Shown one piece after another: positions 34,371 to 50,846 of a DNA stretch of 64,000 nucleotides (position 1 is the first letter of the stretch; each line of letters starts with the position of its first letter). Below the pieces are notes generated by a model. The model saw nothing but the letters and a program-made list of their open reading frames with translations. It made no database searches and was not told where the DNA came from. This DNA comes from Acidithiobacillus thiooxidans ATCC 19377 (GTDB taxonomy: Bacteria > Pseudomonadota > Gammaproteobacteria > Acidithiobacillales > Acidithiobacillaceae). The DNA is taken from positions 1,300,501 through 1,364,500 of the forward strand of contig NZ_CP045571.1 of assembly GCF_009662475.1 (NCBI RefSeq). The letters run 5' to 3'. Position numbers and translations under genes: made by a program.

Positions 34371-34522
34371 CATAAAATCTCAATCATAGCCTTTTATGTT
34401 CTCTCATTAAATTCTTTGTCTGCTGAAAAATATAGGATTTGCTCTCATGCTCTATCATGAGGCATCATGCAAGCGCAACCTCAATAGTAAACGTAAAAGT
34501 AAACGTACTTTCAGGAGCGCCC

Positions 34523-35836
34523 ATGCAAAAACTAACCACTCGCGCTATTGAAGCAGCCCGGCCTGACTCTTCCAAAAAAGATATTTACTTGCGTGATGGC
34601 GACGGTCTGGAGTTGCGCGTCCTTCCTTCTGGTAAAAAAGTCTGGCAATTCCGATATACGTTCTCTGGGAAACGCCGAGTCCTAACCTTCGGCGATTACG
34701 CTGTATGCTCTCTACGGGAGGCTCGTTTACGTGCCCAAGATGCCCGCAAGTTTCTTTCAATAGGGCAAGATCCGGCCGATGAAATCAAAACCAAGGTCGT
34801 GAAGCATGCTGCACCACTGAATAATTCTCCATCCCCCAGGCAAGCCGAAGCTGCGAATGCAGATGGTTTTCCTGAACCAACCCATAGGCTTATTGATCTT
34901 ATGCTGGCCTATGCACAGTGGAAGGAAGAAAGCGGCAAGCCTGCGTATGCCCATGATGTGCGCAACAACACTCGCCTCTACCTTAAGGAAAACGCCCCGG
35001 ACCTCGCTATTAAGCCTGCCAGCGAATGCACCTCAGAGGATATTGCCGCCCTACTCCGCCCTATCCACGAAAGGGGCAAATTGCGCACGACAGGGAAATT
35101 ACGCAGTATACTCTCCGCCGCATTTCAAACCGCACTGCAGGCTCCCTACCATCCGGCTATTCCAAAAAACTTGCTAGGGTTCAATGTAAAATCCAACCCA
35201 GTATTGGCTATTCCGGCCATCCATACAGAGCCACGCGAACACGTACTGACACAAGCGGAATTAGGTCAATATGCGTCTGCTGTCCTAGCTGGTACTGGTA
35301 TCACTTATTACTGTCTTGCCTTGTCCCTTTTTGCCGGTGGGCAACGACCAACGCAAGTCTCCAGAATCCGAGAGGAAGATTATTCCAAAAACGAAAGTAT
35401 CCTGCTTATTAAGGACCCCAAAGGAAAACGCAGTAAACCCCGATTACATTACTTACCCTTGGGAAATTTCGCCACTCAGCTTATAGCGCAATGGCATATG
35501 CCAGGATCCTTGTTGAAAAACCCCATCTGGTTCAGTGTAGATGGCGACACAGTGATGGAGTCTACGAGCCTGTCTCATCAATGCAAGCGCATTCAAAAAA
35601 CTTTTGGCTTGGAACCATTCGAAATGCGCGACATCCGTCGCACCGTTGAAACCGAAATGGCCCGCCTTGGTTTTTCCAAAGATCTTCGTGCCCATCTCCT
35701 CTCTCACGGACTCGGCGGAATCCAGGATCGTCACTACGACCGCTACGACCGTATTGACGAAAAAAGAGAAGCCTTGGAAAAGTGGGAAAAATACCTTTTG
35801 GAACTCATGGAACCTTACCACAACAAACAGGCCTGA
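34523..35836 (+). CDS. int: Tyrosine recombinase/integrase, P4 type
   Basis: A 437-residue integrase, with the start set by a CAGGAGC site before the ATG. It has an N-terminal DUF4102 arm-binding domain (residues 1-90, LTTRAIEAARPDS, DGDGLELRVLPSG, LTFGDYAVCSLREAR), a central core-binding domain (about 120-220) and a catalytic domain. Candidate catalytic residues are Arg275 (GGQRPTQV), Arg369/Arg372 in MRDIRRT (Arg replaces the usual His of HxxR), His395 (LLSHG) and Tyr405 (RHYDRYD). It lies 150 bases after the broken tRNA, the standard place for an integrative element. Confidence 0.92.
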   Translation: MQKLTTRAIEAARPDSSKKDIYLRDGDGLELRVLPSGKKVWQFRYTFSGKRRVLTFGDYAVCSLREARLRAQDARKFLSIGQDPADEIKTKVVKHAAPLNNSPSPRQAEAANADGFPEPTHRLIDLMLAYAQWKEESGKPAYAHDVRNNTRLYLKENAPDLAIKPASECTSEDIAALLRPIHERGKLRTTGKLRSILSAAFQTALQAPYHPAIPKNLLGFNVKSNPVLAIPAIHTEPREHVLTQAELGQYASAVLAGTGITYYCLALSLFAGGQRPTQVSRIREEDYSKNESILLIKDPKGKRSKPRLHYLPLGNFATQLIAQWHMPGSLLKNPIWFSVDGDTVMESTSLSHQCKRIQKTFGLEPFEMRDIRRTVETEMARLGFSKDLRAHLLSHGLGGIQDRHYDRYDRIDEKREALEKWEKYLLELMEPYHNKQA

Positions 35837-36375
35837 TGTATACGCAAAATCGGGACCTATTTCTCTGGTAAAATGAAAATCACGGCGGCAATCAAAGCAC
35901 CTGTTTTGCGCCTATGTTTCTCTTTAGTATCGTAATGGCATTATTATGCTGCGTAATACTACCTAAACTGTCACAGGCCGATGAAATCACCACCGGCCTG
36001 AGATTGGCGTCAAAAATTTCCATGGCTGTACTCAGATGTTCACGGACAATAAAGTTTCATCGTAGCGTCGCCCTGAATTAGGGGGGCTGGATCTGCTTGA
36101 CAGGCGTCGACCCGACTCTACCGCGAATAATGCAGGCATGATCTGGGGTGGCGGTACTCGGCGAAGCCATTGCTAACGGACGACTGGTTGCCATAGTATT
36201 CTCTATGATCTGATGGCTGGTAAAGACTGAAAGCGGACGTTGAATTTAACTCGAATTTTGCATTAATCTTAATCCTGCGAAGGTTGCCTGTTCCCCCAAT
36301 CGCGCCTAAAAGAATCCGGTCCCCAGTCAACATACATGGTGGTAGTCTATCCGCTGGCTCATCTGCTGTGTGAGC
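35837..36375. other. Non-coding stretch between integrase and the lnt-like gene
   Basis: About 540 bases without a convincing gene; short frames are interrupted. It contains a 24-base motif at 36044-36067 that recurs inverted at 52347 (described separately). Composition is mixed, with several stop codons in every frame, and it looks like decayed element or insertion-sequence DNA. Confidence 0.5.
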
Positions 36376-37884
36376 TTATTGCACGTCATTCTCCACGCCT
36401 GTCCGCTGGATCGGACGAAAGGCCTGAATAATCAGAGCAAAAAGGCAGATAATTAAGAATGGCAAGTCACCTAACATTCCAAATGGTGTTTTTCCTTTTC
36501 TCGGGTTTATTTTCCCATTCAAGGCTCCGCTAACAAACTCCGGAAGCTTCGCTTGCACTCTCCCGTTTGGCGAAATGATTGCAGTCACTCCGGTATTTGT
36601 AGCGCGAATATCCGGTTTCTCCTCTTCCCGTGCTTGCATGGCAGCCATTTGAAGACTCTGCGGTAACGCAGTGCTATGCCCAAACCAGGAGTAATCACTA
36701 ATATTCGTTAGAAATGTTGCCCCTTCCACTACTCCTTTCCTGACATCTCGGGAAAAAGATTCCTCATAGCAAATCGTCATGCCATCTCGCAGCCCATCCA
36801 CTTGCAGGGTCGATGACCCATCCCCAGGTGTGAAGCTACCCAAGCCCGGGAGAAAATGATGTACTAAAGGACCTAATAAGTGCGGAAAGGGGATGTATTC
36901 ACCAAAAGGGACTAAATGTTGTTTGCGATACCACTGCCGGGGAGATGTACCATCAATATCCAAAGCCGCATTATAATAGTGCTGATGTGCATATTGAACG
37001 ATACCCAAAATAATTTGCGTGTGATGATGTGCGGACCACACTCGTAAACCCTGAAGTAACTCTGGAATCTGGGTTTGAAAAACAGGAAAAGCCGTCTCCG
37101 GCAAAACATCCAGCATGGTACCCTTGGGGGTGGCAAGAATGAGTTTCACATAACGATTCAGCACAGAATCCAGTTGATGGGTATTCCATTTTTCTGTGAC
37201 GGGAATATCCCCCTGAATAAGTCGTACCGAAAGCAGATGGCGAATGGGCTGGGTCCAGTTAATCTCCGCACTGACGGCAGCTCCTGCGTAAAGAAGCATT
37301 ATTGCACCGACCGTACTCATGACCATGCGGCGCTCGGACCGATGGCGGTAGAGCAATAGGATCAGAGAGGCTACGCAGGCCGTAGCCAGTCCGACACCAT
37401 ACTGACCTAGTAACGGAGCCCACCCCCCTAGAATACTCCAGGTCTGGCTATACCCGGTGGCCAGCCAGGGAAATCCCGTAAAAAGATGTGCGCGTAGCCA
37501 TTCGGAAAGCACCCAGACAAATGGAAGTGCAAATAGACCCTTTCGTGGCCACCATTTCCTCGCAATCCATAGAGCGAGCGCTGGATATAATGCGCAATAA
37601 AACGCCAGCAATAAGACTGCTGTGCCGGATAGTACCCAGTCCATATGGGCAAAATTGTGCAGCGGAATTGCGAGCCAATATATGCCCACAGCAAAGGCAG
37701 ATAAGCCGAAGGTGAATCCTGTCCACGCAGCAAGGCGCGGTGATGCGCGATCCGCTATCGCAAATAAACCCACCAGTAAAATGATCGCCAGATACGATTG
37801 GTCAAAGGGGGCAAATGCCAGTGGCCAACAGGCACCAAGAACCAAACCGGCAATCCACACCAATCGGGAGAACGCCATACCCAC
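36376..37884 (-). CDS. Second apolipoprotein N-acyltransferase (Lnt-like)
   Basis: A 502-residue membrane enzyme. Six or so N-terminal helices (residues 10-200) are followed by a periplasmic nitrilase-type domain. The catalytic triad is visible: Glu263 (VLPETAFP), Lys321 (YRKQHLVPFGEYIP) and Cys372 (MTICYEESF), with VRATNTG-like DIRATNTGVTAII later. Lnt adds the third acyl chain to the N-terminal Cys of lipoproteins. Since it lies in an accessory operon, it is probably an extra copy beside the housekeeping lnt. It is the last gene of the MNIO operon, starting 1 base after the upstream stop. A role in lipidating the operon's own precursor is possible. Confidence 0.88.
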   Translation of the reverse strand: MGMAFSRLVWIAGLVLGACWPLAFAPFDQSYLAIILLVGLFAIADRASPRLAAWTGFTFGLSAFAVGIYWLAIPLHNFAHMDWVLSGTAVLLLAFYCALYPALALWIARKWWPRKGLFALPFVWVLSEWLRAHLFTGFPWLATGYSQTWSILGGWAPLLGQYGVGLATACVASLILLLYRHRSERRMVMSTVGAIMLLYAGAAVSAEINWTQPIRHLLSVRLIQGDIPVTEKWNTHQLDSVLNRYVKLILATPKGTMLDVLPETAFPVFQTQIPELLQGLRVWSAHHHTQIILGIVQYAHQHYYNAALDIDGTSPRQWYRKQHLVPFGEYIPFPHLLGPLVHHFLPGLGSFTPGDGSSTLQVDGLRDGMTICYEESFSRDVRKGVVEGATFLTNISDYSWFGHSTALPQSLQMAAMQAREEEKPDIRATNTGVTAIISPNGRVQAKLPEFVSGALNGKINPRKGKTPFGMLGDLPFLIICLFALIIQAFRPIQRTGVENDVQ

Positions 37885-38523
37885 TCAGGAAATCGTCGCC
37901 ATGATTTCCTGGAGACCATGGGGCCCCAAACCATGCTGGATGACCCACTGTTTCTGTCTGGTCCGATACAGCAGTGTGGGGGTAGCCTCTTCTCCCGTGC
38001 GAATCAGCAATTGGGTGTTGCGGTGTACCGCCCGACGAATGGACACTGGGGCGTTGACTGCGGGATGTATTCCGCCTTCTTCAGTGATCACATTAAAATG
38101 AGACTCATCAAAAGCCATGGCTTGCGTTGGGTGTTTTGCCATGAGGACTGCTTCTGCCTTAGCCGCACTGCTGGGCTTCAGGAAACCCACTAACACCACG
38201 CGCAAATGGAGTTTTCCAGTATGAATCAGCGGCAATGCCTTTTCATAGAACCTATGGCACCAGATACAATTGGGGTCCATAAAGGCGATCAATTCTGGAC
38301 CGTGGTATCCAATCCAAAACGTATCCGCGCGTTTCAGGGCGATCGCGATAGCACTTGGAGACCATGGTCTAGGTAATTTCCTAAATGCCCGGACACTGTG
38401 TGTGAATGCCGCTCGGGTCTGCGCCGGGGCATGTGCAGCAGAGTTTATTGCTGCCATGGACGGCACTGGCAAGGCTGCAAGGAGGAGCATGCAAAGCATA
38501 CCAAGAAAATTCTGTTTCCGCAT
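37885..38523 (-). CDS. Periplasmic thioredoxin-fold protein with CIWC motif
   Basis: A 212-residue DsbC/DsbG-like protein with a signal peptide (MRKQNFLGMLCMLLLAALPVPSMAA). The active site is DPNCIWCHRFYEKA (Cys86 and Cys89), and the cis-Pro loop is EEATPTLLYR. It lacks the normal DsbC dimerisation domain length. Ile-Trp between the cysteines is rare; the two other DsbC-like proteins of this operon have CPYC. It sits between the DUF2063 gene and the lnt-like gene, and its job is probably reduction or isomerisation of disulfides in an operon client (inference). Confidence 0.82.
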   Translation of the reverse strand: MRKQNFLGMLCMLLLAALPVPSMAAINSAAHAPAQTRAAFTHSVRAFRKLPRPWSPSAIAIALKRADTFWIGYHGPELIAFMDPNCIWCHRFYEKALPLIHTGKLHLRVVLVGFLKPSSAAKAEAVLMAKHPTQAMAFDESHFNVITEEGGIHPAVNAPVSIRRAVHRNTQLLIRTGEEATPTLLYRTRQKQWVIQHGLGPHGLQEIMATIS

Positions 38524-38562
38524 TTTATCTCCTTTTAAAAAGCGTGGGTAAAGAATCAGAGC

Positions 38563-39366
38563 TTATTCAGATGGCCGGATACTCAGGATTCCTCCGTTTT
38601 GAAAGCCCTGAAGGATGAGATTAAATCTTCCATCTGGCTGGCTATACAGCCCCCACAACAGCGCATCTTCCAGCGAATTGCCAACACGCGTGAGCAGTCG
38701 AATGAACGCATATTCACCTGCCGACAGGGCCAAGAAACGGGGCCATCCAGGATGGTTCACCGCACAAATTCCAAATATAGTGGGTGCGTCATTGGCATCC
38801 TCACCCAGAGATTCTAACTCCACATCATGATGTAAGATCACAGACATTATGATTGGTTTGCTTGTACGTAACAGCGGGGGTTGTTGATCCAGATAGAGGG
38901 TTTTCCCTGACAGGTTCCCTAGAGGAATAGGCGCACCAGATTCATACAGATCAAAAGGATGCTCATAGACAAAGGCGCTCATATGGAAAAACCACTCCAG
39001 GCGCGCGAGACCTGCAAAGTCATGCTGGATTCTGTCGTAGTGGACTCCGCCCTGGACGGTCAGAAAGGATGCCAAGTGCTCACCATACCGCATGAGATCC
39101 GGATCAGTGGGTAGATCTGCGGCGATAAAGGTACTGACCAGTTCAGCGAATAACTCCTCACCCATCGCTGTGAGCAGGGCGGGATAAATAAACGCCAGAG
39201 ATTCGGTAAGATGCTGTTGAATATTGTTTTGATAGATGCGAAAAGCTGACTGATGTTGGGCCATCAAGGAGTCTTCAGGCAGCGCTCCAACCGACGGGCC
39301 CACCTTCTGTAGTCGCGCTATCCATTGACGCTGCCATTGACGCAGCATGAGGCTATCGTCCTTCAT
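38563..39366 (-). CDS. DUF2063 partner protein of the MNIO enzyme (BufC/HvfC-like)
   Basis: About 267 residues from MKDDSLMLRQW. The N-terminal part, AFRIYQNNIQQHLTESLAFIYPALLTAMGEELFAELVSTFI, and RYGEHLASFL with YDRIQHDFAGLARLEWFFH, are typical of DUF2063. In bufferin and Hvf systems this protein binds the DUF692 enzyme and presents the precursor peptide. The ATG overlaps the MNIO stop (ATGA at 39366-39363), so the two are translationally coupled and probably made in equal amounts. Confidence 0.88.
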   Translation of the reverse strand: MKDDSLMLRQWQRQWIARLQKVGPSVGALPEDSLMAQHQSAFRIYQNNIQQHLTESLAFIYPALLTAMGEELFAELVSTFIAADLPTDPDLMRYGEHLASFLTVQGGVHYDRIQHDFAGLARLEWFFHMSAFVYEHPFDLYESGAPIPLGNLSGKTLYLDQQPPLLRTSKPIIMSVILHHDVELESLGEDANDAPTIFGICAVNHPGWPRFLALSAGEYAFIRLLTRVGNSLEDALLWGLYSQPDGRFNLILQGFQNGGILSIRPSE

Positions 39367-40187
39367 TGGATCATACCGGAGACACAGCATTGGGCTGTCG
39401 CTAACAAGATCGGTAATGCCGGCAGGTCAGCATCCCACTCCAATATGCGGAGCGCGTTGGGAAAGCGATCACTGGCTTGGCGGAACAGGCTCTGGGTCGC
39501 AGGGCTGGGTTCGCGGCTGTGCGTGTCGACATGTACAGTGGATCCATTCAGAGTAACCTGTTCGCCGCCGGCCAAATGAATTTCTGTCACGGCATTCCGG
39601 GGTAAACTTTCGATAAAGGTAGCTGGATCCCCACCATGATTCAGAACATTGATGGATAGGTTCTCAACATCCAGCAGCAGCTCGCACCCCGCTTGTTCTA
39701 CCAACTCGATCAGAAAATCCGTTTCCGAATATTCGTCCGCCCAATCAGGTTTCAGATAGGTGGCAATATTTTCCAATAAAATTGGTCGTCTCAGAAAATC
39801 CTGGACCTTATGCACACGCGATACCAGATGTCTTAAAACAAAGCGCCGCCGTGGAACGGGATACTGATCACTGAAATAGCGATTATTCAGGGAACACCAA
39901 GCGAGATGATCCGATACTCGTAATGGCTCATATCGATCGATCAGGGCGCGCAGCCTGCGCAGATAATTCATATTCAGGCTGTCCGCAGAAGCAATGGACA
40001 GACCAACGCCATGAAGACTTAGGGGATAAGCAGAGCGAATGTGATCCAGCGCATTAAGCCAGGAAACTCCCGCACTCATGTAATCTTCGCTATACACCTC
40101 ACATGCCCCGATATCCGGTTTGGTATCGAGGACTTCATCCACGTGCGGGGCACGTAGACCAATCCCCATGGGGAGGTTCGCGGTCAT
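39363..40187 (-). CDS. DUF692 multinuclear non-haem iron oxidase (MNIO, BufB/HvfB-like)
   Basis: A 274-residue TIM-barrel enzyme. Family members oxidise Cys of RiPP precursors to thiooxazoles, oxazolone/thioamide pairs or related groups. Conserved positions: GIGLR at 8-12, His59 (LSLHGVGLS), His94 (VSDHLAW), Glu139 (LLENIATYL), Asp173 (LLLDVEN), His184 (LNHGGD), His204 (EIHLAGG), Asp221/His223 (VDTHS) and Glu250 (LEWDADLP), enough for a two- or three-iron site. Differences from the usual pattern are Glu175 where DVNN has Asn and Gly where HLAGH has its second His. It is downstream of the precursor gene and coupled to the DUF2063 gene. Confidence 0.92.
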   Translation of the reverse strand: MTANLPMGIGLRAPHVDEVLDTKPDIGACEVYSEDYMSAGVSWLNALDHIRSAYPLSLHGVGLSIASADSLNMNYLRRLRALIDRYEPLRVSDHLAWCSLNNRYFSDQYPVPRRRFVLRHLVSRVHKVQDFLRRPILLENIATYLKPDWADEYSETDFLIELVEQAGCELLLDVENLSINVLNHGGDPATFIESLPRNAVTEIHLAGGEQVTLNGSTVHVDTHSREPSPATQSLFRQASDRFPNALRILEWDADLPALPILLATAQCCVSGMIQ

Positions 40188-40243
40188 GTCTTTTCTACCC
40201 GGGAGGTACCGGATCTCTTCTAGAGACCCGGAGGACCGATTGG

Positions 40244-40510
40244 TTACATGCCGGACTTGTGCGTTTGGGTCTTGCTACTACACCCATGACCCATCATGGA
40301 GTCCTTTTTCTTTTGTGTATGGCTTTTGCCACTGCAGCCATGACGCATCATTCCTCCACCGGCTTTGGCATTGGACTGGGTTTTCGCCGCGGGTGGGTTC
40401 ATCATGGTCTCTGCATGAGCGACTGTTATCATGGTGCCGCCGGCCAGACAACTGGCCAGAAAGGCTCCAGCAATAGCTTTTGCTACGTTACGCTGATCTT
40501 GGTTATACAT
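40244..40510 (-). CDS. Candidate RiPP precursor with two HGC repeats (BufA/HvfA-like role)
   Basis: An 88-residue peptide. The start is the ATG at 40510 because AAGGAG lies 7 bases upstream; an earlier in-frame ATG would place that site inside the gene. Residues 1-33 form a signal peptide ending TVAHA, with a second possible processing site LASC at residues 18-21 (lipobox-like). Two repeat units follow, 18 residues apart: MMRHGCSGKSH (54-64) and MMGHGCSSKTQTH (72-84). Cys59 and Cys77 are the only cysteines of the mature region after AHA cleavage. Known bufferins have DUF2282 or EGKCG repeats; this one is different. Position just before the MNIO gene makes it the likely substrate. Confidence 0.8.
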   Translation of the reverse strand: MYNQDQRNVAKAIAGAFLASCLAGGTMITVAHAETMMNPPAAKTQSNAKAGGGMMRHGCSGKSHTQKKKDSMMGHGCSSKTQTHKSGM

Positions 40511-40576
40511 CTTCAATCTCCTTGTCATCAGACATGATATAACGACTTCTTTGCATGGCGATCAGCCACGCAAATT

Positions 40577-41194
40577 TTATTGCAAATGCGGCAACAATTC
40601 GGTGAGCTGCTTTTCTGAAATCATTCCTGGAATGCGACCCAGTTGCCCGTTTTTAACCCGATAAAGGATGGCTGGAGTCCCCTCAAAGCCCAGAGCACTC
40701 ATCATGTCGAGGTTCTGTTTTAATTCTGCTGTCGTTTTGGCCGTGGGGGTGGCCTTGGGCAGCTGGCGGTAGCTACCACTGCGAAGTGCAGGACCCACAA
40801 TAGTCTCGAAGTGTTTTAACGCCCTCAAGGGATGGGGTGACTGGAGCCAGGCGGCCGCTTCTGCGGGACTCTGGGGTGTCAGGAACGCAACGGGAACATA
40901 GCGCACTGTGAGCTTTCCCGCTTTGATCAGGGGTGCTTCATGCTCATACATGACATGACAGTAGGGGCAATTGGGGTCTTGAAAATCATAGATCACGGGA
41001 CCGCTATGCCCTTCTTGAATGTAGGTGATGTGATGGGCCAGAATTTGGTTCCAGAGAATGGCTGCCGTCATTTTCTTGGGTGGTGCGGTCGGAGTCTGCG
41101 CAATGGCGAAAGGCATACCAGATAGCAACAAGCTACAACCCAGTATTCCGGTAAATAGCCATTTCTGGGCTTTTGTTCTGAAGCGGTTTTTCAT
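40577..41194 (-). CDS. DsbC-like periplasmic thiol protein (CPYC), copy 2
   Basis: A 205-residue protein with signal peptide (ending FAIAQ), a short alpha-helical N-terminal part and one thioredoxin fold. The active site is QDPNCPYCHVMYE (Cys76, Cys79), and the cis-Pro loop is EGTPAILYR. It is a close paralogue of the next gene upstream (ITYIQEGHSGPVIYDF and IPGMISEKQLTELLP align). CPYC is close to the CGYC of DsbC and is expected to be an isomerase or reductase fed by DsbD. It precedes the precursor gene by 67 bases. Confidence 0.86.
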   Translation of the reverse strand: MKNRFRTKAQKWLFTGILGCSLLLSGMPFAIAQTPTAPPKKMTAAILWNQILAHHITYIQEGHSGPVIYDFQDPNCPYCHVMYEHEAPLIKAGKLTVRYVPVAFLTPQSPAEAAAWLQSPHPLRALKHFETIVGPALRSGSYRQLPKATPTAKTTAELKQNLDMMSALGFEGTPAILYRVKNGQLGRIPGMISEKQLTELLPHLQ

Positions 41195-41219
41195 GCCTAC
41201 GGATTCTCCTGTACGTCGT

Positions 41220-41825
41220 TCATTTCAGATTCGGGAGCATAGTCAGCAGTTCCCCATGGGAGACCATGCCCGGAATTAATCCTGTGCTGCCATTTTTGTG
41301 CTCATACAGTATGGCTGGTACGCCCATGGAATGGGTGGTCTGCAGTATAGCCATATTGGTCTTCAGAGCCTGAATCGTGGGGGCTGTTGCTTTGGCCTGA
41401 GGTAAGCCAACCGGGCCGCTGGCCGTCATCGGTGCTGCGAAACTTTTTCCCGCCAGCGCTTCAAAATGCTGCAGTGTGGCGACGCGATCCGAAGACTGCA
41501 TTAGAGCAGCGGCCTCGGGCGTGCTGCTGGGCATCAGGTAAGCGACTGGAACATACCTTACGGTAAGTTGGCCTGCCTTGATCAGTGACTGCTCTTCGTC
41601 ATACATGCTGTGACAATAGGGACAATTTGGATCAAAAAAATCATAAATGACAGGACCTTTGTGTCCCTCCTGGATATAGGTCAGGCGCTGACCTATATCC
41701 TTCCAATAACTGTTTTGAGACATTTTGGGTAAAGGCGGAAGTGCAGTCGTTGCCATGGCCGCTCCTGCCCACAGGACACCGACTAAAATACCGAATACCT
41801 TTGTTCGTTTTACAATGTGGTGCAT
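41220..41825 (-). CDS. DsbC-like periplasmic thiol protein (CPYC), copy 1
   Basis: A 201-residue paralogue of the downstream gene. It has a signal peptide (ending GAAMATT), LTYIQEGHKGPVIYDFFDPNCPYCHSMYDEE (broken here into family motif and active site, Cys68 and Cys71) and MGVPAILYEHKNG as the cis-Pro loop. A classic DsbC dimerisation domain is not seen. The tandem copies suggest duplication within the operon, possibly with different clients. It follows the dsbD gene by 41 bases. Confidence 0.86.
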   Translation of the reverse strand: MHHIVKRTKVFGILVGVLWAGAAMATTALPPLPKMSQNSYWKDIGQRLTYIQEGHKGPVIYDFFDPNCPYCHSMYDEEQSLIKAGQLTVRYVPVAYLMPSSTPEAAALMQSSDRVATLQHFEALAGKSFAAPMTASGPVGLPQAKATAPTIQALKTNMAILQTTHSMGVPAILYEHKNGSTGLIPGMVSHGELLTMLPNLK

Positions 41826-41866
41826 AGGAATTTCCTCATCAGGTTCTTAGGGATAATGATCCGTCA

Positions 41867-43822
41867 TCAATTGACCAGCTTTTGTTGCAGATGCTGTAGC
41901 AACGTTTCTGGTCCTTCATAACCTTCATATTGCGCAACCATGCGCCCATCTGGATTGACCAGCAAAACGGCCGGCGGTCCGAAAAGCTGAAAATGATGCA
42001 ACAGTTCTCTGGACGCAGCATTACTGGCGGTGACATCCACCCGAATCAGGGTTAGAGGCTGCAAGGCGTGCTCAACGCGTGGATTATCGTAGGTTTCGAC
42101 GTCCATACGCTGGCACTCAACGCACCACTTTGCCCAAAAGTCCACCAACACCGGATGCCCTTTTGCAGCGGTCAGTGCGGCTTGTAATTGAGGCAGGCTG
42201 CGAACCATTGTGAAGTGGGGGGTTGCGTTCTGCGGAGTGGTTGCTGTCACGTCCCGATCGACAAAAGGCGCCAAAGGTTCAAGCACCAGAGTACCGCCAG
42301 CCAATGCCCCTATGCCCAGTGCGATGCCATACGCAAAGACCAGCAATCCGAATCCCTGCGCAAAGTGTTTCCAGCCGCCATGCTCACGGTTTTGCGCGTT
42401 GGAAGCAGAATGGAATGCCCCCATGTACACACTGGAAATGATAGCCAGAGCTGCCCACAATGCGAGCGTAAGCGGACCGGGTAGGATTCGGGATAGAAAC
42501 CAGATGGCCACCCCAAGCAAGACGACCCCAAAAATGGCCTTAACGCCATTCATCCAGGAACCGGCCTTCGGTAGAAAATGTCCGGCAGAGGTGCCAATAA
42601 CCAGTAAAGGAACGCCCATCCCCAGTGCCAGAAGGAACAAGGCTATCCCGCCCAGGAGCAGGTTGCCGGTGTGGGCAATGAATAGCAAAGCGCCGGCCAG
42701 CGGTGCTGCCACGCAGGGGCCAACAATCAGGGCAGACAGGATGCCCATAATAAAGGCGCTGGAAAAGTGTCCCCCTTTCCCATACCGGGAGAGGCGCGAT
42801 TGTATGGCCGTTGGCATCTGCAATTCATAAAAGCCAAACATGGAAAGTGCCAGCAGCACAAACAGCGCACTGAATCCGCTCAACACCCAGGGATTTTGGA
42901 AAAATGCCTGCAGGTAGGAGCCTGTTACGGCAGCGGCCACGCCGGCCACCGCATAGGTGAGTGCCATACCGAGCACATAGGCCAATGAAATCCAGAATGC
43001 GTGCCTACGCGATTGTCGAGTCGTCATCTGTGCGTCCCCATGACCAACCACGAGCGACGACAAAATTGGAATCATCGGGAAAATGCAGGGTGTGAAGGCC
43101 AAGCCCAATCCGGCGATAAAAAACAACAAGAGCGTGAGGGGAATCTCTGAACCATTTAATCCAGCAGCGAACTGGCTGTATTGACCGGATGCGCGTGCCG
43201 GATGGATTTGCATCGCTGGCGATGCGGTTGGGTGTGGAGGCGTACTGGATGTCGTGGCCATTGTGGCCGTGTTGCGAGTGACGGCTGTCGGTATGAGCGT
43301 ATAGGCCTTGGTCTCCAATGGGTAACACACTCCGGCATTGGCACAACCCTGAAAACTGCTGGTCACCTGGATATGTTTTGGCGGACTGCCGGTGAAATGC
43401 ACGGGTACCCGAATGGTGGTGGTGTCTCCTTCATACACAGCCAGTGTGCCCACTCCTGGAATGTGCATGGGTTTGCCCGGTGGCAAGGTATAAGGTCCTA
43501 GCTGCGCGGATGACGGTGTAAGGTGTACCGTGATGCGGTTACGGTAGAGGTGGTACTTCGGCGCCGCGATCCATTGAAGAACCACAATATTGTTGGGCGC
43601 CATGTGCGCTTTGAAGCGAAAGGCCTTGGCCGGCGCCAGAAACGGTGAAGCACTCGCCATCGGGGACAAAAAAGGCGCATTGGCCCATGCCGGCTGAGAT
43701 GGGAGCAACATAGCGGCCAGTAACGGCCAGAACCATAAAAGAAGGGGGAGGGATCGCTGTCTGGTTTTCCGCATACGCTGCGGTCGTTTCTGAAAAGGAC
43801 CACCTAAAAACTCAAGCAACAT
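41867..43822 (-). CDS. dsbD: Thiol:disulfide interchange protein DsbD
   Basis: About 651 residues from the ATG at 43822 (GGAG five bases upstream); a later Met at 43774 would also give a good signal peptide. Three modules are seen: periplasmic nDsbD with Cys160/Cys166 (FQGCANAGVC), an eight-helix membrane domain with Cys246 (LAFTPCIFPMIP) and Cys370 (LIVGPCVAAPLAG), and a C-terminal thioredoxin domain with Cys567/Cys570 (DFWAKWCVECQ). It moves electrons from cytoplasmic thioredoxin to periplasmic thiol proteins. As first gene of the operon it can power the three thioredoxin-fold proteins encoded with it. Confidence 0.93.
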   Translation of the reverse strand: MLLEFLGGPFQKRPQRMRKTRQRSLPLLLWFWPLLAAMLLPSQPAWANAPFLSPMASASPFLAPAKAFRFKAHMAPNNIVVLQWIAAPKYHLYRNRITVHLTPSSAQLGPYTLPPGKPMHIPGVGTLAVYEGDTTTIRVPVHFTGSPPKHIQVTSSFQGCANAGVCYPLETKAYTLIPTAVTRNTATMATTSSTPPHPTASPAMQIHPARASGQYSQFAAGLNGSEIPLTLLLFFIAGLGLAFTPCIFPMIPILSSLVVGHGDAQMTTRQSRRHAFWISLAYVLGMALTYAVAGVAAAVTGSYLQAFFQNPWVLSGFSALFVLLALSMFGFYELQMPTAIQSRLSRYGKGGHFSSAFIMGILSALIVGPCVAAPLAGALLFIAHTGNLLLGGIALFLLALGMGVPLLVIGTSAGHFLPKAGSWMNGVKAIFGVVLLGVAIWFLSRILPGPLTLALWAALAIISSVYMGAFHSASNAQNREHGGWKHFAQGFGLLVFAYGIALGIGALAGGTLVLEPLAPFVDRDVTATTPQNATPHFTMVRSLPQLQAALTAAKGHPVLVDFWAKWCVECQRMDVETYDNPRVEHALQPLTLIRVDVTASNAASRELLHHFQLFGPPAVLLVNPDGRMVAQYEGYEGPETLLQHLQQKLVN

Positions 43823-43921
43823 CTGCACTCCAAATCACCACAGTAAATTTATCAAACCGCCCACTGCGGCTTGAATTCTCATTGTAAAGGCAGAAAACAT
43901 GCCAGAAGGTGCGACACGCGT

Positions 43922-44485
43922 TCAGATTTCGCGCACAAACTTCACATGCACGGGCGTGGGATGACGCACCATGTCCGTGACCGGCGATGTTTTTTGAACG
44001 TGGTCGAGCAGATCTGCGATGGCTGAATCCGATGCGTCGCTTTTCATGTGACAGGCAATGTTGATGTCGTGGCATCCCGCTCGAATCGTTTCCGACAGAC
44101 CCAAAAAGCCGTGCAAGTCGATGTCACCGGTGACATCCAGCCTCATCGCTTCGATGGCAATACCCCGTGCGGCAGCATTGTAGGCGATCCCCACCGAAAG
44201 GCAGGCTGTTAGACCAGCGAGTAATAATTCAACCGCATTGGCCCCCTGATTACTGCCGAGCAATACGGGCGGCTCATCACCTTCCAACACAAAGGGCTGT
44301 TGTCGCGATTGATCTTCCTGTTTGACACCGTGGAAGCTCTGAATATGAGTTTGTACATGGGCTCCAGAGTGCCATTCTGTGCGGGCACGGAACTGAAATG
44401 CGGCCAAGGCAGGATCATTTTTTACGGCCTCAATGGTGGCCACGAGCTTCTGTACGTCCACTCCGTTGGGATGCTGTTGCGTCAT
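43922..44485 (-). CDS. OsmC/Ohr-family protein
   Basis: A 187-residue OsmC-like protein. Most of the fold is visible: VLLGSNQGANAVELLLAGLTACLSVGIAYNAAARG carries the first conserved Cys (TACLS). The usual second reactive Cys is replaced by context around AGCHDINIACHM, which has two Cys. Classical OsmC and Ohr reduce hydroperoxides; YhfA-like members with altered cysteines may bind persulfides. Neighbours (DsrE, sulfur dioxygenase) favour a sulfur role. It is transcribed in the same direction as the MNIO operon but 100 bases before it. Confidence 0.82.
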   Translation of the reverse strand: MTQQHPNGVDVQKLVATIEAVKNDPALAAFQFRARTEWHSGAHVQTHIQSFHGVKQEDQSRQQPFVLEGDEPPVLLGSNQGANAVELLLAGLTACLSVGIAYNAAARGIAIEAMRLDVTGDIDLHGFLGLSETIRAGCHDINIACHMKSDASDSAIADLLDHVQKTSPVTDMVRHPTPVHVKFVREI

Positions 44486-44559
44486 GATCGTTCCTCCAGA
44501 TTTTGTTGGTTTAGGAAGTTGTTAATTTTTGGAGTTAGAAATCCTTGAATGGTTCCCCG

Positions 44560-44898
44560 TCAGAAACACACGATTTCGTCTGCCGCGCTGATCCAGGTAG
44601 AGAGACCTTTCATGGAGCTTTTGTGGACTCCAGGCGGCAATGTTTCCATGGCTTGCGCTTTTAAAGAGCTTCCGCAGCACTGGACCTCCAGGCCCAATTC
44701 CAGCAATTCCCCCAGCAACGCGCGGGTGCTGTCGTTGGCCATAGGACTGGGTCGCAGAAGTTGTACCCCTTGTCCCGCAAGAAACAATCGGACGTCCTTA
44801 TTGTCTGCCAACATGGCCCCGGCGAGTCGTACCGCCGTATCGGCGCGGGGGTTTTCCAAGTCTGGACCCGCATGCAGGATAATTAAAGCTTGGGTCAT
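44560..44898 (-). CDS. DsrE-family sulfur-trafficking protein
   Basis: A 112-residue DsrE/DsrF-like protein. The fold starts TQALIILHAGPD, and a Cys pair is at LEVQCCGSSLKAQ, the position of the active cysteine in TusD/DsrE relatives; a third Cys is near the C-terminus (DEIVCF). Such proteins carry persulfide sulfur between enzymes in the cytoplasm. It lies between an OsmC-type gene and a MFS gene; the upstream sulfur dioxygenase makes a sulfane-sulfur context likely. Confidence 0.85.
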   Translation of the reverse strand: MTQALIILHAGPDLENPRADTAVRLAGAMLADNKDVRLFLAGQGVQLLRPSPMANDSTRALLGELLELGLEVQCCGSSLKAQAMETLPPGVHKSSMKGLSTWISAADEIVCF

Positions 44899-44913
44899 GA
44901 GTATGCTCCCATT

Positions 44914-46185
44914 CTAGAGGCTGCGAGGGTGGGTTTCCTGGACGGCAAAAGCAATCCATATACCCGATATGGCAACAATGGCTGCTGTCAGCCAGATTGC
45001 CGGCAGAATTTTATCGCTCCACTGGGCGACCAGACCGAGAATCAGTCCGCCAATGGCGTAGCCCGTATCGCGCCAGTACCGATAGGTGCCAAGGATCCGG
45101 CCGCGTTCCAGAGGGGGTGCCACATCGGACATGGCGGCGATCAGGTTGGGATAGAGAAGGGCCATGCCCAGGCCCATGACCGCCGCCGTAGCAATCCACG
45201 CGGTGAAGTGGCCGACCAGCGCAGTGCCTGCAAGCCCCGCAGCCAGCAGGGCGAAGCCTGCCAGGATGGGCGGTCTGCGACCGATGCGATCCGCTAGATG
45301 TCCGGTCCCAAATTGACCGAGCCCCCAGACCATCGCATAGATACCGGTGATCCAGCCGATTTGCACGACGCTCAAGCCGTGAAAACGGAAAAAGACCGGG
45401 AAGAGGACCCAAACTAGGGTATCGGCAATCTTGTTGGCGACCCCACCCTGGCAGAGGGCCCGATAGGTGGCGTCCCGAAAAGAAACGTGCAGGAAAGTCG
45501 CCCAGGTGCTGGCCTGAGAAGCCGTCTTTGAGGTTTCGGTCGATGGCTGACGCTGTGCATGCTCTGCGCGAACCCAATGGATAGTATCCTGGATCCCCAA
45601 TAGCAGGAGTAGCGCAAGCGCAATGACCACGAGTCCGAAAGCCAACAGTGTCCAACGGGGACCGTAGACGACGGCAAGATAGCCCGTTGCGAGGCCCGCC
45701 AAACCTACCGCGATATACCCCACTGCCTCATTGATGCCGACCGCAAGGCCGCGCTGGTGGTTATCGGCTAGATCGATTTGGCTCGTGACGGTCATGGTCC
45801 AGGTAAAGGCCTGGTTTACCCCCAAAAAGACATTGGCGGCGATGATCCACCACCAGTTGGGAGCAAAAAAGATCATTAGCGGAATAGGAATCCCCGCCAA
45901 CCAGCCCAGGAATAACACCCGCCTGCGACCGATTCGATCGGATAGCCCGCCGGCGACAAAGTTTAGAGCCCCTTTTACCAGGCCAAAGGAAATCACAAAG
46001 GAGGCGAGAAAAAGGAAGGCGTGGCTATCTACGCCAAAACGGTGACTCATGGCGGGAAGGACATTTCTCTCCATGCCGATGATCAAGCCTACGAAAAAGA
46101 CCTGAACCGTTTGCAGGAGGAACTGACCTCGATTGACGCCAATTCCTCGAGTATAGGTCGCGGTCTCCTGAGACCCGGAGTTCAT
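44914..46185 (-). CDS. MFS transporter, third gene of the sulfur dioxygenase operon
   Basis: About 423 residues from the ATG at 46185, which overlaps the ArsR stop (ATGA). Twelve helices and MFS loop motifs are visible (GGLSDRIGRRRVLFLGW and GTGHLADRIGRRPPILAG). The substrate is not known. Because it is coupled to a sulfide- or persulfide-type regulator and a sulfur dioxygenase, export of a sulfur anion such as sulfite is a reasonable guess, and nothing more. Confidence 0.85.
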   Translation of the reverse strand: MNSGSQETATYTRGIGVNRGQFLLQTVQVFFVGLIIGMERNVLPAMSHRFGVDSHAFLFLASFVISFGLVKGALNFVAGGLSDRIGRRRVLFLGWLAGIPIPLMIFFAPNWWWIIAANVFLGVNQAFTWTMTVTSQIDLADNHQRGLAVGINEAVGYIAVGLAGLATGYLAVVYGPRWTLLAFGLVVIALALLLLLGIQDTIHWVRAEHAQRQPSTETSKTASQASTWATFLHVSFRDATYRALCQGGVANKIADTLVWVLFPVFFRFHGLSVVQIGWITGIYAMVWGLGQFGTGHLADRIGRRPPILAGFALLAAGLAGTALVGHFTAWIATAAVMGLGMALLYPNLIAAMSDVAPPLERGRILGTYRYWRDTGYAIGGLILGLVAQWSDKILPAIWLTAAIVAISGIWIAFAVQETHPRSL

Positions 46186-46541
46186 CCCTGATGCTCCTTG
46201 CGTAGAGGCACCACCGTCGCTAATGCCTCTTGAAGCTGGGTAGTGGTCTGCATTTGGTCCAGGATGAGATCGCGGACGATCTCGCACGTTTCCAAAACCT
46301 TGGGGCTGGTTAGACGATAGTGACAGAAGGTCCCGCACTTTTCGCAATGCACCAAGCCCCGAGCTTTCAGTACGCTCAGGTGCTGGGAAAGGTTGGCTTT
46401 GGAGAGGCTGATGAGTTCTGCCAATTCACCGGCATTTTTCTGTCCCTCGCCCAGATAATGGATGATTTCCAGGCGTTTTGGGTGCGCCAGGGCGGCAAAT
46501 ACCTCAGAAAATAGCGCATACCGAACCGTATCGTTCTTCAT
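46182..46541 (-). CDS. ArsR-family repressor, BigR/SqrR-like context
   Basis: A 119-residue winged-helix repressor from MKNDTVRYAL (ATGA overlap with the stop of the sulfur dioxygenase gene). Core: FAALAHPKRLEIIHYLGEGQ, LSKANLSQHLSVLKARGLV. It has four Cys: 66, 69 and 73 around VHCEKCGTFCHYRL and Cys86 in LETCEIV. The As/Sb CxC box of ArsR is absent. Pairs of cysteines in this region are used by BigR and SqrR to sense sulfide or persulfide, and the genetic link to a sulfur dioxygenase supports that. It most likely represses its own operon. Confidence 0.85.
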   Translation of the reverse strand: MKNDTVRYALFSEVFAALAHPKRLEIIHYLGEGQKNAGELAELISLSKANLSQHLSVLKARGLVHCEKCGTFCHYRLTSPKVLETCEIVRDLILDQMQTTTQLQEALATVVPLRKEHQG

Positions 46542-47275
46542 GCTGCTTTCCCCAGATTGATGGCAACCATGCGCGCCATATCGGCGGGCTTTTCGGGAAT
46601 GTCCGCGGTAAGCGAACGAACGAAAGCCTCGCGCTTCATGGTGAGGTAAGGGTCCCAACGTTTTTCAAAACCCAGAGTCGAAGAGGGCTTCCCGGACAGG
46701 CCCGCACCGCAGACGCTCCCGGCCGCGTGCCCCGGGAAAATCTCCAAGTCATCGGGCAGGGTGAGCAGTTTTTGGTGAAGGCTGTCGAAGAGTTTTCCCG
46801 CCATTTCCTCCGGCGTTCCACCCAGATCGGGGCGTCCCACTCCGCCAACAAAGAGCGTGTCACCGGTTAGGGCAAACCAGGGGTCGGCACTTCTCCGCCG
46901 ATCGCTGACCAGAAGACAGAGGCTGTCCAGGGTATGGCCGGGGGTGTAGAGCACTTGCGTTACGACATTTCCAGTTTTCAGGACTTCGCCGTCGTGAAGG
47001 CCGCGAATCGCAAACTGCACCAAGTCTACATCGCTTTCGTGCATGCAGTACGGTGCGCCAACCCGTTCCGCCAAGGCCCGCCCGCCAGATAGGTGATCCG
47101 CGTGAATGTGGGTGTCGATGACGAAGCTAATGGCAACTGCAGCCTTCTGTGCCTCTTCGAGGAACCAGTCCTCGTCGCCCGCTACCACATCCACGGCTAC
47201 TGCGAAGCCCTTGCCTCCACATCCGTAGAAGTAGGACAAGGTACCGTCGGCGCTTGCGCGTTGTTTGAAGAACAT
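46538..47275 (-). CDS. Sulfur (persulfide) dioxygenase, ETHE1-like
   Basis: A 245-residue metallo-beta-lactamase-fold protein with no rhodanese domain. Motif THIHADHLSGG gives His56, His58, Asp60 and His61; later ligands are in TPGHTLDSL, LTGDTLFVGG and FPGHAAG. The signature CGAGLSGKPSSTLGFEKRW is typical of ETHE1/SDO enzymes, which oxidise glutathione persulfide to sulfite using mononuclear iron. Function: sulfane-sulfur oxidation or detoxification. It leads an operon SDO-ArsR-MFS. AGAAGTT and AACTTCT (47295 and 47332) form a spaced inverted pair in its upstream region. Confidence 0.9.
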   Translation of the reverse strand: MFFKQRASADGTLSYFYGCGGKGFAVAVDVVAGDEDWFLEEAQKAAVAISFVIDTHIHADHLSGGRALAERVGAPYCMHESDVDLVQFAIRGLHDGEVLKTGNVVTQVLYTPGHTLDSLCLLVSDRRRSADPWFALTGDTLFVGGVGRPDLGGTPEEMAGKLFDSLHQKLLTLPDDLEIFPGHAAGSVCGAGLSGKPSSTLGFEKRWDPYLTMKREAFVRSLTADIPEKPADMARMVAINLGKAA

Positions 47276-47519
47276 GGTTCACCTCCAGCATTCAGAAGTT
47301 AAGAAATATTGCAACTAAAAGGTAGATAAGAACTTCTCCCCTGTCAAGATCGCGCCCTATGCTGCCAGTGGTGCTATAGGTGGCCGCCGATATCCAAACA
47401 GAGATGGAGCGCTGTCCCGGTGAGGACTACAGGGCAGCGAACGGTAGAGTGCAATCGACAATGCCGTCGCGCCAGACATCCCTATCAGGAACATGCGCAC
47501 GTTGCTTGATGGATACTCT

Positions 47520-48053
47520 CTAAACCCAAGTCCACAACAACTTCCAAACAATCACGGGTAGCGCTATGGCCCCGACATAGCGTCCCACGATTCGCCCCTT
47601 CCCATTGACGAGTATACTGGTGGGAGTCAGGACCACGCCGCCTAGCGCCTGGCTGACACCCTGGCCGGCGGCCAGATACTCTGGATAGTTGATGCCCAAC
47701 TCGCGCATCCTCGCACGTACGGCTTTCGCTGTACTTCCATTTACGCCAATTCCAATAATGCTAAAGGACTTCCCGCCGAACCACTGCTGCAGTTGCACCA
47801 ACGCTGGGGTCTCGGCCAGGCAAGCCGGACAGTCTGGTGCCCAGAAGTTGATAAGGATCATTCTCTTCGGCACCGCTGGCAGTTCAATAGGCCGACCACT
47901 CAGGCTTCGGACAATTAAACTCGGTAGTTGTTGGGGGGCTTTTACCGCCATAGGGCTGCCTCGCCACTGCGTAAACGCATAGACTCCAATCAGCAGCCCG
48001 ATCCAGATAACAAACTCTATCCAAAACTTTCTTTTTTTCAGTAAAGAAAGCAT
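47520..48053 (-). CDS. Membrane-anchored TlpA/ResA-like thioredoxin
   Basis: About 177 residues from MLSLLKKRKFW (an upstream extension is open). One N-terminal membrane anchor (IEFVIWIGLLIGVYAFTQW) holds a periplasmic thioredoxin domain with active site NFWAPDCPACLAETP (CPAC) and cis-Pro LTPTSILV. This is the TlpA/ScsD type, which reduces protein thiols in cytochrome maturation or copper resistance. It could connect to DsbD of the neighbouring operon. A second hydrophobic stretch at the C-terminus (ALPVIVWKLLWTWV) is unusual. Confidence 0.82.
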   Translation of the reverse strand: MLSLLKKRKFWIEFVIWIGLLIGVYAFTQWRGSPMAVKAPQQLPSLIVRSLSGRPIELPAVPKRMILINFWAPDCPACLAETPALVQLQQWFGGKSFSIIGIGVNGSTAKAVRARMRELGINYPEYLAAGQGVSQALGGVVLTPTSILVNGKGRIVGRYVGAIALPVIVWKLLWTWV

Positions 48054-48161
48054 GGTGGATATCCTCGCCAAGAGGCGCCTGGGCAAATATCAAGAGTCAG
48101 TACCCATTTCCCCGGGATATCCACCAAGTAGTTGAACCGACACATACGTCCACCTGAGAAA

Positions 48162-48647
48162 TCAAGATGCCCTGACACTCTCCGCTTTGAGATGGATCTT
48201 TCCCTGGTTTTGTAGGCGAGCCAGTAATACCGTCACACTTGCCGAACTCAGGGAAAGCATCCCCGCCAGGGCGTCTGGATCCTGGCTACCGGCTTGTTCA
48301 ATCCGATGGAGAACTTCATCCTCTCGGGCCGCGAGCCATTCTTCAAAAAGTTGGTGCAGCTCCGGCTGGGCATAGGCCGCGAGCGCGGTGGTGCGCTGCA
48401 TGGTTTCCAGCATTTCCGAGCACATCGCCATGCACGATCCCATCATTTGTTGCATGGGATTGCCACCTTCCGCGCCTTCCCCGTGCTGGTTCATCATCTT
48501 CTGCATCATCGCCATGGGACTCCCACCGCCTTGTCCCATCATTTTTTTCATCATTCCCATACCCATGGAGTTTCCACCCCTGGACTTTGCAGAATCGCCT
48601 TTTTCGTTGCCACTTTTTTCCGGTTCATCGGGTTTTGCTGATTCCAT
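48162..48647 (-). CDS. Methionine-rich protein with C-terminal helical domain
   Basis: A 161-residue protein. The first 80 residues are Met/Gly-rich with clusters MGMGMMKKMMG, MAMMQKMMNQ and MQQMMGSCMAMC (a C-x3-C pair), typical of copper(I) or silver binding by thioethers. The C-terminal half is a normal helical region (LHQLFEEWLAAREDEVLHRI, ASVTVLLARLQNQGKI). No signal peptide, so it is cytoplasmic unless exported by another route. No named family is recognised. It follows a methyltransferase and SHOCT protein in a metal-type cluster. Confidence 0.7.
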   Translation of the reverse strand: MESAKPDEPEKSGNEKGDSAKSRGGNSMGMGMMKKMMGQGGGSPMAMMQKMMNQHGEGAEGGNPMQQMMGSCMAMCSEMLETMQRTTALAAYAQPELHQLFEEWLAAREDEVLHRIEQAGSQDPDALAGMLSLSSASVTVLLARLQNQGKIHLKAESVRAS

Positions 48648-48715
48648 GATTACTCTCCTAAATTACTCAGATTTGTCACTGCCAACAGAATTCCTGGGCA
48701 GTTCCGGTTTCTCCG

Positions 48716-49324
48716 TTATCCACGAAGTCGAAAAAGGCTACCGTAGTGATAGGGGGGCAACGTAATCACGTCTACCTGTCGGAAGCCAGCGGGTTCTACC
48801 ACAGTTCGCACCTGCTCCGGCGTCATGCGCAGTTCCGTGCGCGGTCCGCGTGCCTGTCCCAGCACCGGTGTTTCTTCCCGCGGGCGGGCATGCCAGTTGA
48901 CGACGGCGAAAAGACCACCTGGTTTCAGGACGCGGGCGATCTCCCGGGCCAGGGCCGTCTGCTCGGGCACGCCGTGAAAGGTATTGGCCATGAGGCAATA
49001 ATCTACCGGCTTCGGGAGCAGTTGATGCAGATCCATGGCGTCGCCTTGCAAAAAAGAACAGTTCCGCAACCCGGCGCACGCCGATTCCGCGGCAGCAAGC
49101 ATTTGCTCGTCGAGATCAAGACCGAAGACTTCACCGTTTTCCACCTGTTTGGCGAGGGCAGCAGTGAAATAACCATCGCCGCAGCAAAGGTCCAAGACCG
49201 ACATTCCTGTTGTTACGCCAAGATCCTGAACGACCCTCAAGGGATCGGGCCACAGCGCTTGCCACCAGTCTGGGTCAGGCATGATTGTCGCTGGGAATAA
49301 AGCCTCTTGCTTATCAACGTTCAT
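48716..49324 (-). CDS. Class I SAM-dependent methyltransferase
   Basis: About 202 residues from the ATG at 49324 with GGAGGA upstream; a longer frame to 49486 is not needed. The SAM motif VLDLCCGDGYFTAAL and the later RVLKPGGLFAVVNWHARP are clear. CysCys in the glycine-rich loop (LCCGDG) and the position in an ArsR cluster resemble small-metalloid methyltransferases, but the substrate is unknown. It follows the SHOCT gene by 13 bases, so they share a transcript. Confidence 0.82.
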   Translation of the reverse strand: MNVDKQEALFPATIMPDPDWWQALWPDPLRVVQDLGVTTGMSVLDLCCGDGYFTAALAKQVENGEVFGLDLDEQMLAAAESACAGLRNCSFLQGDAMDLHQLLPKPVDYCLMANTFHGVPEQTALAREIARVLKPGGLFAVVNWHARPREETPVLGQARGPRTELRMTPEQVRTVVEPAGFRQVDVITLPPYHYGSLFRLRG

Positions 49325-49337
49325 GTAATCTTCCTCC

Positions 49338-49942: not shown

Positions 49943-49956
49943 AACATTCTCCTTGA

Positions 49957-49972
49957 TATGAGCACGCTCATA
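49957..49972. promoter_or_regulatory. Palindromic operator for ArsR 2
   Basis: TATGAGC and GCTCATA are perfect inverted arms separated by AC. The site lies in the 112-base gap between the divergent ArsR 2 and GST genes, just upstream of the ArsR ribosome-binding site. A minus-strand TTGACA (50011-50016) with a CAATAT 17 bases on makes a promoter that this site would block. Binding is inferred. Confidence 0.6.
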
Positions 49973-50054
49973 CATGTATAGTTGCTTATATTGATGATAA
50001 CGCATGCGGTTGTCAATAGGTTCGACTTTCGTGCTGCCATCTGGGAGGATTTTC

Positions 50055-50839: not shown

Positions 50840-50846
50840 GCTTCAA

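Follow-up and report, generated by a model that had tools for sequence, protein, structure and literature searches.

The 64,000-nucleotide stretch of the Acidithiobacillus thiooxidans ATCC 19377 genome analysed here (contig NZ_CP045571.1, positions 1,300,501 to 1,364,500; hereafter the window) carries a compact gene cluster for a ribosomally synthesized and post-translationally modified peptide (RiPP). A small, putatively secreted precursor with an HGC motif, a multinuclear non-heme iron-dependent oxidase (MNIO) and its DUF2063 partner are flanked in this cluster by DsbD, three DsbG-like thiol proteins and an apolipoprotein N-acyltransferase (Lnt). The catalytic motifs of the enzymes and the cysteine motif of the precursor are conserved, and the same kind of Dsb gene set recurs with different bufferin cassettes. 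On this sequence evidence, there is an even chance that the operon makes a metal-buffering RiPP of the bufferin/captophorin type, whose lone thiols are kept reduced by a reductive relay from DsbD to the DsbG-like proteins. Taken with the genetic linkage, the literature on thiol oxidation and DsbG makes a relay that acts on the modified peptide the most probable interpretation, at odds close to even; the main rival is a parallel repair arm.

All eight genes were present in the list of open reading frames (ORFs) of the window, on the minus strand, from DsbD (43828) to Lnt (36376). The earlier note on this DNA had described them as a co-directional, tightly packed MNIO RiPP cluster; the packing is confirmed, the gaps measuring 0-66 nt apart from a single overlap of 28 nt, and the nature of the cluster is supported by domain matches and gene order. 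The first gene encodes DsbD, a membrane thiol electron carrier of 653 aa (41867-43828; ORF list, Pfam, NCBIfam), at the place given in the note, its start being taken as the GTG at 43828 rather than the next in-frame ATG at 43822. It is followed by DsbG1 (41220-41825; ORF list, NCBIfam, structure-chain match) and DsbG2 (40577-41194; NCBIfam, relatives in other species), both DsbG-like catalytic domains with a CPYC motif, and by the 88-aa HGC precursor (40244-40510; ORF reading, alignment). The MNIO (39363-40187; Pfam, NCBIfam) and the DUF2063 partner protein (PME type 1; 38563-39390; Pfam) come next, then DsbG3, a DsbG-like protein with a CIWC active site (37885-38523; Pfam, NCBIfam), and a Lnt paralogue that is intact in the window (36376-37884; Pfam, NCBIfam). 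Gaps of 41 nt separate DsbD from DsbG1, 25 nt DsbG1 from DsbG2, 66 nt DsbG2 from the precursor start at 40510, 56 nt the precursor from the MNIO and 39 nt DUF2063 from the CIWC gene, which abuts Lnt (0 nt); the MNIO/DUF2063 overlap of 28 nt is counted from the first ATG of DUF2063. This arrangement predicts a single operon. A scan for promoter-like sites (4 against 10.6 expected) and terminator-like sites (14 against 10.4 expected) was uninformative, and a tRNA scan of the window found none.

The MNIO matches PF05114 with 262.9 bits (cut-off 25). It is BufB-like, but with 285.7 bits it falls under the cut-off of 310 of the curated BufB model NF050167, as does its counterpart in a second species, Acidithiobacillus YTS05 (268.7 bits). 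Eight residues, H59, H94, E139, D173, H204, D221, H223 and E250, are invariant in all seven aligned MNIOs and are presumably the metal ligands. The DUF2063 protein, directly after the MNIO, scores 50.9 bits (cut-off 27.2).

The precursor starts at 40510 after an AAGGAG box and contains three cysteines, Cys21, Cys59 and Cys77, the last two held in two M-M-x-[HN]-G-C-S motifs. Both GCS motifs are kept in the alignment of the window, a second copy in the host genome and YTS05; the second host copy has one HGC changed to NGC. Window and YTS05 precursors are 61% identical and have in common the segment VAKxIAxAFLASCLAGGT, an A-x-A site and two M-M-x-x-G-C-S motifs. A hydrophobic stretch, identified by eye, and an A-x-A site (A-H-A in the window), present in three of three family members compared, point to a putative Sec signal peptide. 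No Pfam or NCBIfam family, including DUF2282 and BufA2, matches the precursor. Relatives were sought in 17 genomes of the genus, eight of which gave matches at E values up to 10, the convincing ones being the two host copies and a remnant in A. montserratensis; the YTS05 precursor came from another collection. Over 9,101 bp the two host copies differ at 11 bases; three of these lie within the precursor gene (267 bp), each altering the protein sequence.

DsbD scores 521 bits against PRK00293 (cut-off 330); its DsbD_N, DsbD_TM and thioredoxin domains correspond to the alpha, transmembrane and gamma parts. For all three thiol proteins (201-212 aa) the best NCBIfam match is DsbG, with 117.1 bits for DsbG2, 101.4 for the CIWC protein and 91.7 for DsbG1, none of which reaches the cut-off of 124 bits of model NF008657. 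The matches cover the catalytic part alone, from model position 97-122, and the two CPYC proteins align from residue 79 of the DsbG structure chain. The presumed cis-Pro loop reads V-P in DsbG1 and T-P in DsbG2. When solved structures were compared with the DsbG1/DsbG2 alignment, DsbG chains gave E 4.7e-19 and the best ScsC chain E 3.7e-05, a comparison that covered the two CPYC proteins. The two CPYC proteins had been named DsbC-like; this identity is rejected in favour of DsbG, on the NCBIfam best matches and on the DsbG chains being best among structures. The CIWC thioredoxin-fold protein of the note is indeed present and can be refined to a DsbG-like protein, under the cut-off.

The proposed mechanism would begin in the cytoplasm, where the MNIO and DUF2063 would oxidise the HGC precursor at Cys59 and Cys77, probably to 5-thiooxazoles. 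After Sec export, signal peptidase I would cleave at AHA/ET. The periplasm being acidic and rich in Fe(III) and metals, oxidation would turn the lone thiols into sulfenates or disulfides there, and the peptide would lose its affinity for the metal, perhaps copper or another soft metal. Electrons from cytoplasmic thioredoxin would pass through DsbD to the three DsbG-like proteins, each of a single domain; these may then return the peptide to its reduced form, much as DsbG of E. coli acts on single-cysteine proteins.

This mechanism touches a question that the texts consulted leave unexplained for thiooxazole RiPPs, a recently recognised and widespread copper-handling class: how thiols prone to oxidation last in the periplasm. 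For the aggregation of fontiphorin, disulfides formed by its thiols were suspected by the authors (PMC12668002); for a Microbulbifer peptide of the thiooxazole type, TCEP reduction pointed to a possible disulfide (PMC12538549). DsbD maintains DsbG in reduced form, and DsbG protects cysteines that stand alone (PMC7089426). During the leaching of metal-rich residues, A. ferridurans upregulated both DsbD and DsbG (PMC12053936), which fits the relay as well. In the 2025 MNIO landscape paper, cluster cores consist of precursor, MNIO, DUF2063 and DoxX, with further conserved genes in extremely low proportions; its main text has no thioredoxin, Dsb, CcdA, thiol, apolipoprotein or acyltransferase. This main text agrees with the claim of the note that a complete electron chain is a novelty among MNIO clusters. 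No paper joining DUF692/MNIO with DsbD, thioredoxin or Acidithiobacillus was found in a search whose scope excluded most subscription papers. The recurrent DsbD/DsbG link makes the question of thiol survival testable with defined genes.

The host genome, a single contig of 3.42 Mb, has six MNIO loci, and at five of them a DsbD is no more than about 2 kb away. Apart from the window operon itself, one (L007) is an inverted second copy of the operon, 99.88% identical to the window over 9,101 bp; beyond this core an insertion with a transposase-like ORF lies between DUF2063 and the CIWC gene, after which identity is 96%. Three further loci are of the DUF2282 type: two near-identical ones (L012 and L013) read MNIO-DUF2063-DsbD-DsbG1-DsbG2-CIWC, and in the third (L011) a transposase-like ORF stands between DUF2063 and DsbD, followed by DsbG1-DsbG2, with no CIWC match nearby. 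The sixth (L014) has another type of precursor and no Dsb match in 12 kb. The window DsbD is 73-78% identical to the DsbDs of the DUF2282-type loci, whereas the MNIOs of HGC and DUF2282 cassettes are only 39% identical; both cassette types therefore share one kind of Dsb partner. A separate core DsbD is 52-56% identical to the others (52% to that of the window). The precursor motif is new, and a single genome is seen to pair the same kind of Dsb set with two precursor-enzyme cassettes that differ strongly.

Linkage was also followed into other Acidithiobacillus species, and there too the DsbD/DsbG set is a recurrent MNIO neighbour, as the note had proposed checking. On the YTS05 chromosome (L145) the order MBL-ArsR-MFS-DsrE-OsmC-DsbD-DsbG1-DsbG2-HGC-MNIO-DUF2063-CIWC-Lnt is that of the window. 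Local identities are 75% for DsbD (72% end to end), 69% for DsbG1 and for DsbG2, 61% for the MNIO, 63% for the CIWC protein and 35% for DUF2063; upstream they are 77% for OsmC, 95% for MFS and 97% for ArsR, with the DsrE match split by about 1.2 kb. The 95-97% identity of MFS and ArsR, as against 35-77% for the genes downstream, suggests recombination inside the neighbourhood. A chance association of neighbours in one genome was considered and rejected on the recurrence of the full order in this second species. A. montserratensis holds a decayed version, ArsR-MFS-DsrE-DsbD-DsbG1-DsbG2 followed by an HGC gene that carries a frameshift, and its DsbD is divided between two frames; there is no MNIO at this remnant, its single MNIO being on another contig.

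The DsbG genes that other species carry close to bufferin genes are relatives of DsbG2. In A. concretivorus, A. marinus, YTS05 and STE_117 such a DsbG lies a short way downstream of DUF2282-bufferin genes and in their orientation. A. concretivorus reads DUF2282-MNIO-DUF2063-DsbG, and in A. marinus the order DUF2282-DoxX-DUF2282-MNIO-DUF2063-DsbG is followed by a gene that reads, by reading only, as an ECF-type sigma factor. A second YTS05 locus (L151) and STE_117 have DUF2282-MNIO-DUF2063, then about 1.4-2 kb before DsbG. In A. ferriphilus (L150) DsbG adjoins a divergently oriented gene for a small secreted peptide that bears EGHC and DGKCG motifs; in A. ferrivorans (L149) a similar peptide match has the same position by a DsbG2-type gene; neither has an MNIO in its flanks. 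A contig filed under a Vampirovibrio metagenome-assembled genome (MAG; L144), probably by a binning error, carries DsbD-DsbG1-DsbG2-CIWC in the layout of an A. sulfurivorans contig.

The window-type MNIO was also sought elsewhere. Twelve of the 17 genus genomes have an MNIO, and all 16 MNIO places there outside the host best match other MNIO types, the window type being confined to the host in this set. Among 398 genomes of the phylum, 112 match at 1e-40 (host included), with the listed matches outside the host at no more than 43% identity; the YTS05 form matches 12 of 369 genomes of the class at 1e-60, none above 45% identity outside the host genome. Plasmid records matched the MNIO in 345 cases, all below 60% identity, and DsbG2 in 14, none covering 80%.

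Several observations weigh against a relay dedicated to the peptide. The N-terminal dimerisation domain of DsbG is missing from all three thiol proteins. A Campylobacter DsbG-like protein gave no copper protection (PMC7089426), and in the Caulobacter sigmaF/bufferin system two genes were uninduced by peroxides, paraquat and diamide; that paper names thioredoxin only as a metal-induced gene (PMC3511200). Dsb genes also occur without MNIO: a 5.9-kb contig of A. sulfurivorans has DsbD-DsbG1-DsbG2-CIWC beside a divergent MBL start and no MNIO. In a scan that kept 80 of 308 confirmed loci, only five of the 18 closest DsbG2 relatives (L138-L155, 52-79% identity) have an MNIO in their flanks at profile limits of 1e-5 and 1e-4 (L142, L145, L146, L147, L151), or eight if a precursor-like gene is counted as well (adding L141, L149 and L150), the flanks of L143, L144 and L155 being limited by contig ends. 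Among the other 62 (L156-L217), some of them distant Acidithiobacillus paralogues, one, from an unplaced proteobacterial MAG (L216), shows DUF2282-MNIO-DUF2063-DsbG. Nor did DsbG, CIWC or Lnt types appear in any of 60 stretches round the best-scoring MNIO places of the phylum outside the host, several of them shortened by contig ends. Finally, the sulfur genes upstream of the operon suggest another possible client.

Linkage of DsbD/DsbG to MNIO is thus rare beyond the genus. DUF2063-type genes occur in 57 of the 60 phylum stretches and DsbD-profile matches in five. Four of these five (L096, L098, L100, L102) read as encoding proteins of the CcdA type together with thioredoxin-domain proteins, which Pfam confirms for L096 and L098; the fifth is L086. 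With Pfam, 106 DsbD_TM matches were found in 58 genomes. Of these, five are no more than 10 kb away from any of the 66 MNIOs, against an expectation of 0.62 (Poisson P about 0.0005); a single genus supplies three of them, and for three events P is 0.025. One of the five (L129) was missed by our own DsbD profile. A thioredoxin-fold protein lies near the CcdA-type gene in L096, L098 and L129, that of L129 being named by reading only; L096, L098, L100, L102 and L129 come from proteobacteria of another class than the host.

A less likely explanation, and the main rival, is that the cluster serves one metal-stress response through two arms that work side by side, the peptide binding metal while DsbD and the DsbG-like proteins repair, or sequester metal alone in the manner of ScsB/ScsC, with shared regulation and no contact. 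The Dsb genes that lack an MNIO in several genomes fit such an arrangement, as do ScsB, which keeps ScsC reduced, and ScsC, since both bind Cu(I) and belong to copper tolerance in other bacteria (PMC8900818), and the upregulation of DsbD and DsbG in A. ferridurans leaching metal-rich residues (PMC12053936). The structures point the other way, DsbG being the best match and ScsC reaching only the weaker E value given above, and genes of the DsbG2 type have precursors of three different kinds as neighbours (DUF2282, HGC and EGKCG-like), which goes beyond what co-regulation by itself would call for.

It is improbable that the Dsb set instead serves sulfur or persulfide handling, together with the MBL hydrolase, ArsR, MFS, DsrE and OsmC, and that the MNIO cassette is inserted cargo. 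The MNIO cassettes do vary while the Dsb set stays; MAG clean429 (L055/L139) has the MBL-ArsR-MFS-DsrE block beside DsbG2 and no MNIO, and A. montserratensis has ArsR-MFS-DsrE beside the Dsb array. In A. marinus, however, DsbG follows DUF2282-MNIO-DUF2063 in a 17.5-kb locus with no MBL, ArsR or DsrE match.

The Lnt gene was described in the note as extra, rightly, a second full-length Lnt being present in the host genome at G000:C1:696605. The window protein scores 289.3 bits against TIGR00546 (cut-off 132.9) and has LNT_N and CN_hydrolase domains. Its importance for the system is another matter: the YTS05 Lnt is truncated, matching over residues 7-197 of 502 only, and the second host copy has an in-frame stop, so that the gene is broken in two of three operon copies; no Lnt match was found beside the three DUF2282-type loci of the host or in the 60 phylum stretches. 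An acyltransferase as a needed part is therefore unsupported and rejected, and Lnt looks dispensable or optional.

It is very doubtful that the product is a lipidated RiPP, cut by signal peptidase II at Cys21, N-acylated by the Lnt of the operon and anchored in the membrane with its metal, in line with the anchoring idea of the note. Lipidated MNIO RiPPs exist; FLASC is identical in the precursors of the window, YTS05 and the A. montserratensis remnant, and the E, K and C of the Lnt catalytic triad are kept in alignment with the other Lnt of the host. The strict lipobox pattern passes in the A. montserratensis remnant but fails in both intact precursors (window and YTS05), which fit a relaxed pattern only, and the A-x-A site of signal peptidase I is present in three of three. 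Conservation of the signal peptide may reflect recognition by the MNIO-partner complex rather than a lipobox; preliminary results in the 2025 landscape paper make the signal peptide part of what the enzyme complex recognises.

Upstream, the same-strand run probably extends to 47275 through five minus-strand genes: an OsmC-like protein (43922-44485; Pfam), also found in YTS05, and four recurrent neighbours assigned by domain match, a DsrE-like sulfur-carrier protein (44560-44898), an MFS transporter (44914-46179, with a longer ORF reaching 46347), an ArsR-family regulator (46182-46544, with a longer ORF reaching 46658) and an MBL-fold hydrolase (46538-47275), probably a persulfide or sulfur dioxygenase. 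The operon lies in an inverted duplication of about 16 kb (window 36217-52301 against G000:C1:1541762-1560822), 96-97% identical on both sides of the core. Adjoining the operon in the duplicated stretch, positions 47520-52198 hold a redoxin/TlpA-like protein, a methyltransferase, a second ArsR and an ArsP-type permease, a group that suggests metalloid resistance. Just past one end of the duplication is a tyrosine recombinase with an Arm DNA-binding domain (34439-35836), possibly marking a mobile element.

Put more generally, and tentatively, thiol metallophores made by MNIOs may need active upkeep by a dedicated membrane-to-periplasm thiol relay, consisting of DsbD and DsbG-like proteins in Acidithiobacillus, a genus used for bioleaching, and of CcdA and thioredoxin-fold proteins in some other proteobacteria. 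Such peptides would be rechargeable rather than single-use, and HGC would be the first of a new precursor family tied to the relay.

Among known systems, the bufferins Buf1/Buf2 and the EGKCG oxazolins, for which the name captophorins was proposed (PMC12452194, PMC12668002), have a secreted Cys-motif precursor, MNIO and DUF2063 in the order also seen here, where the precursor is putatively secreted. The HGC precursor differs in standing outside DUF2282, BufA2 and other Pfam or NCBIfam families, with its own M-M-x-[HN]-G-C-S motif, and its operon has no DoxX match and is flanked by DsbD, three DsbG-like genes and Lnt. DybA-like MNIO-lipoprotein hybrids (PMC12636315) resemble it in having an MNIO-modified precursor with a possible lipobox; DybA, however, uses the ubiquitous lipoprotein pathway, whereas the HGC operon has an extra Lnt, broken in two of three copies, and a relaxed lipobox only. 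With ScsABCD (suppressor of copper sensitivity), which is tied to copper tolerance, it shares a DsbD-like membrane donor and periplasmic thioredoxin-fold proteins, but here the donor passes the DsbD model, the partners are DsbG-like rather than ScsC-like, and both are coupled to a RiPP cluster. The E. coli DsbD-DsbG pathway for single cysteines has the same donor and the same family of catalytic domain; the Acidithiobacillus set differs in its three paralogues, in their lack of a dimerisation domain and in its proposed client, a small modified peptide.

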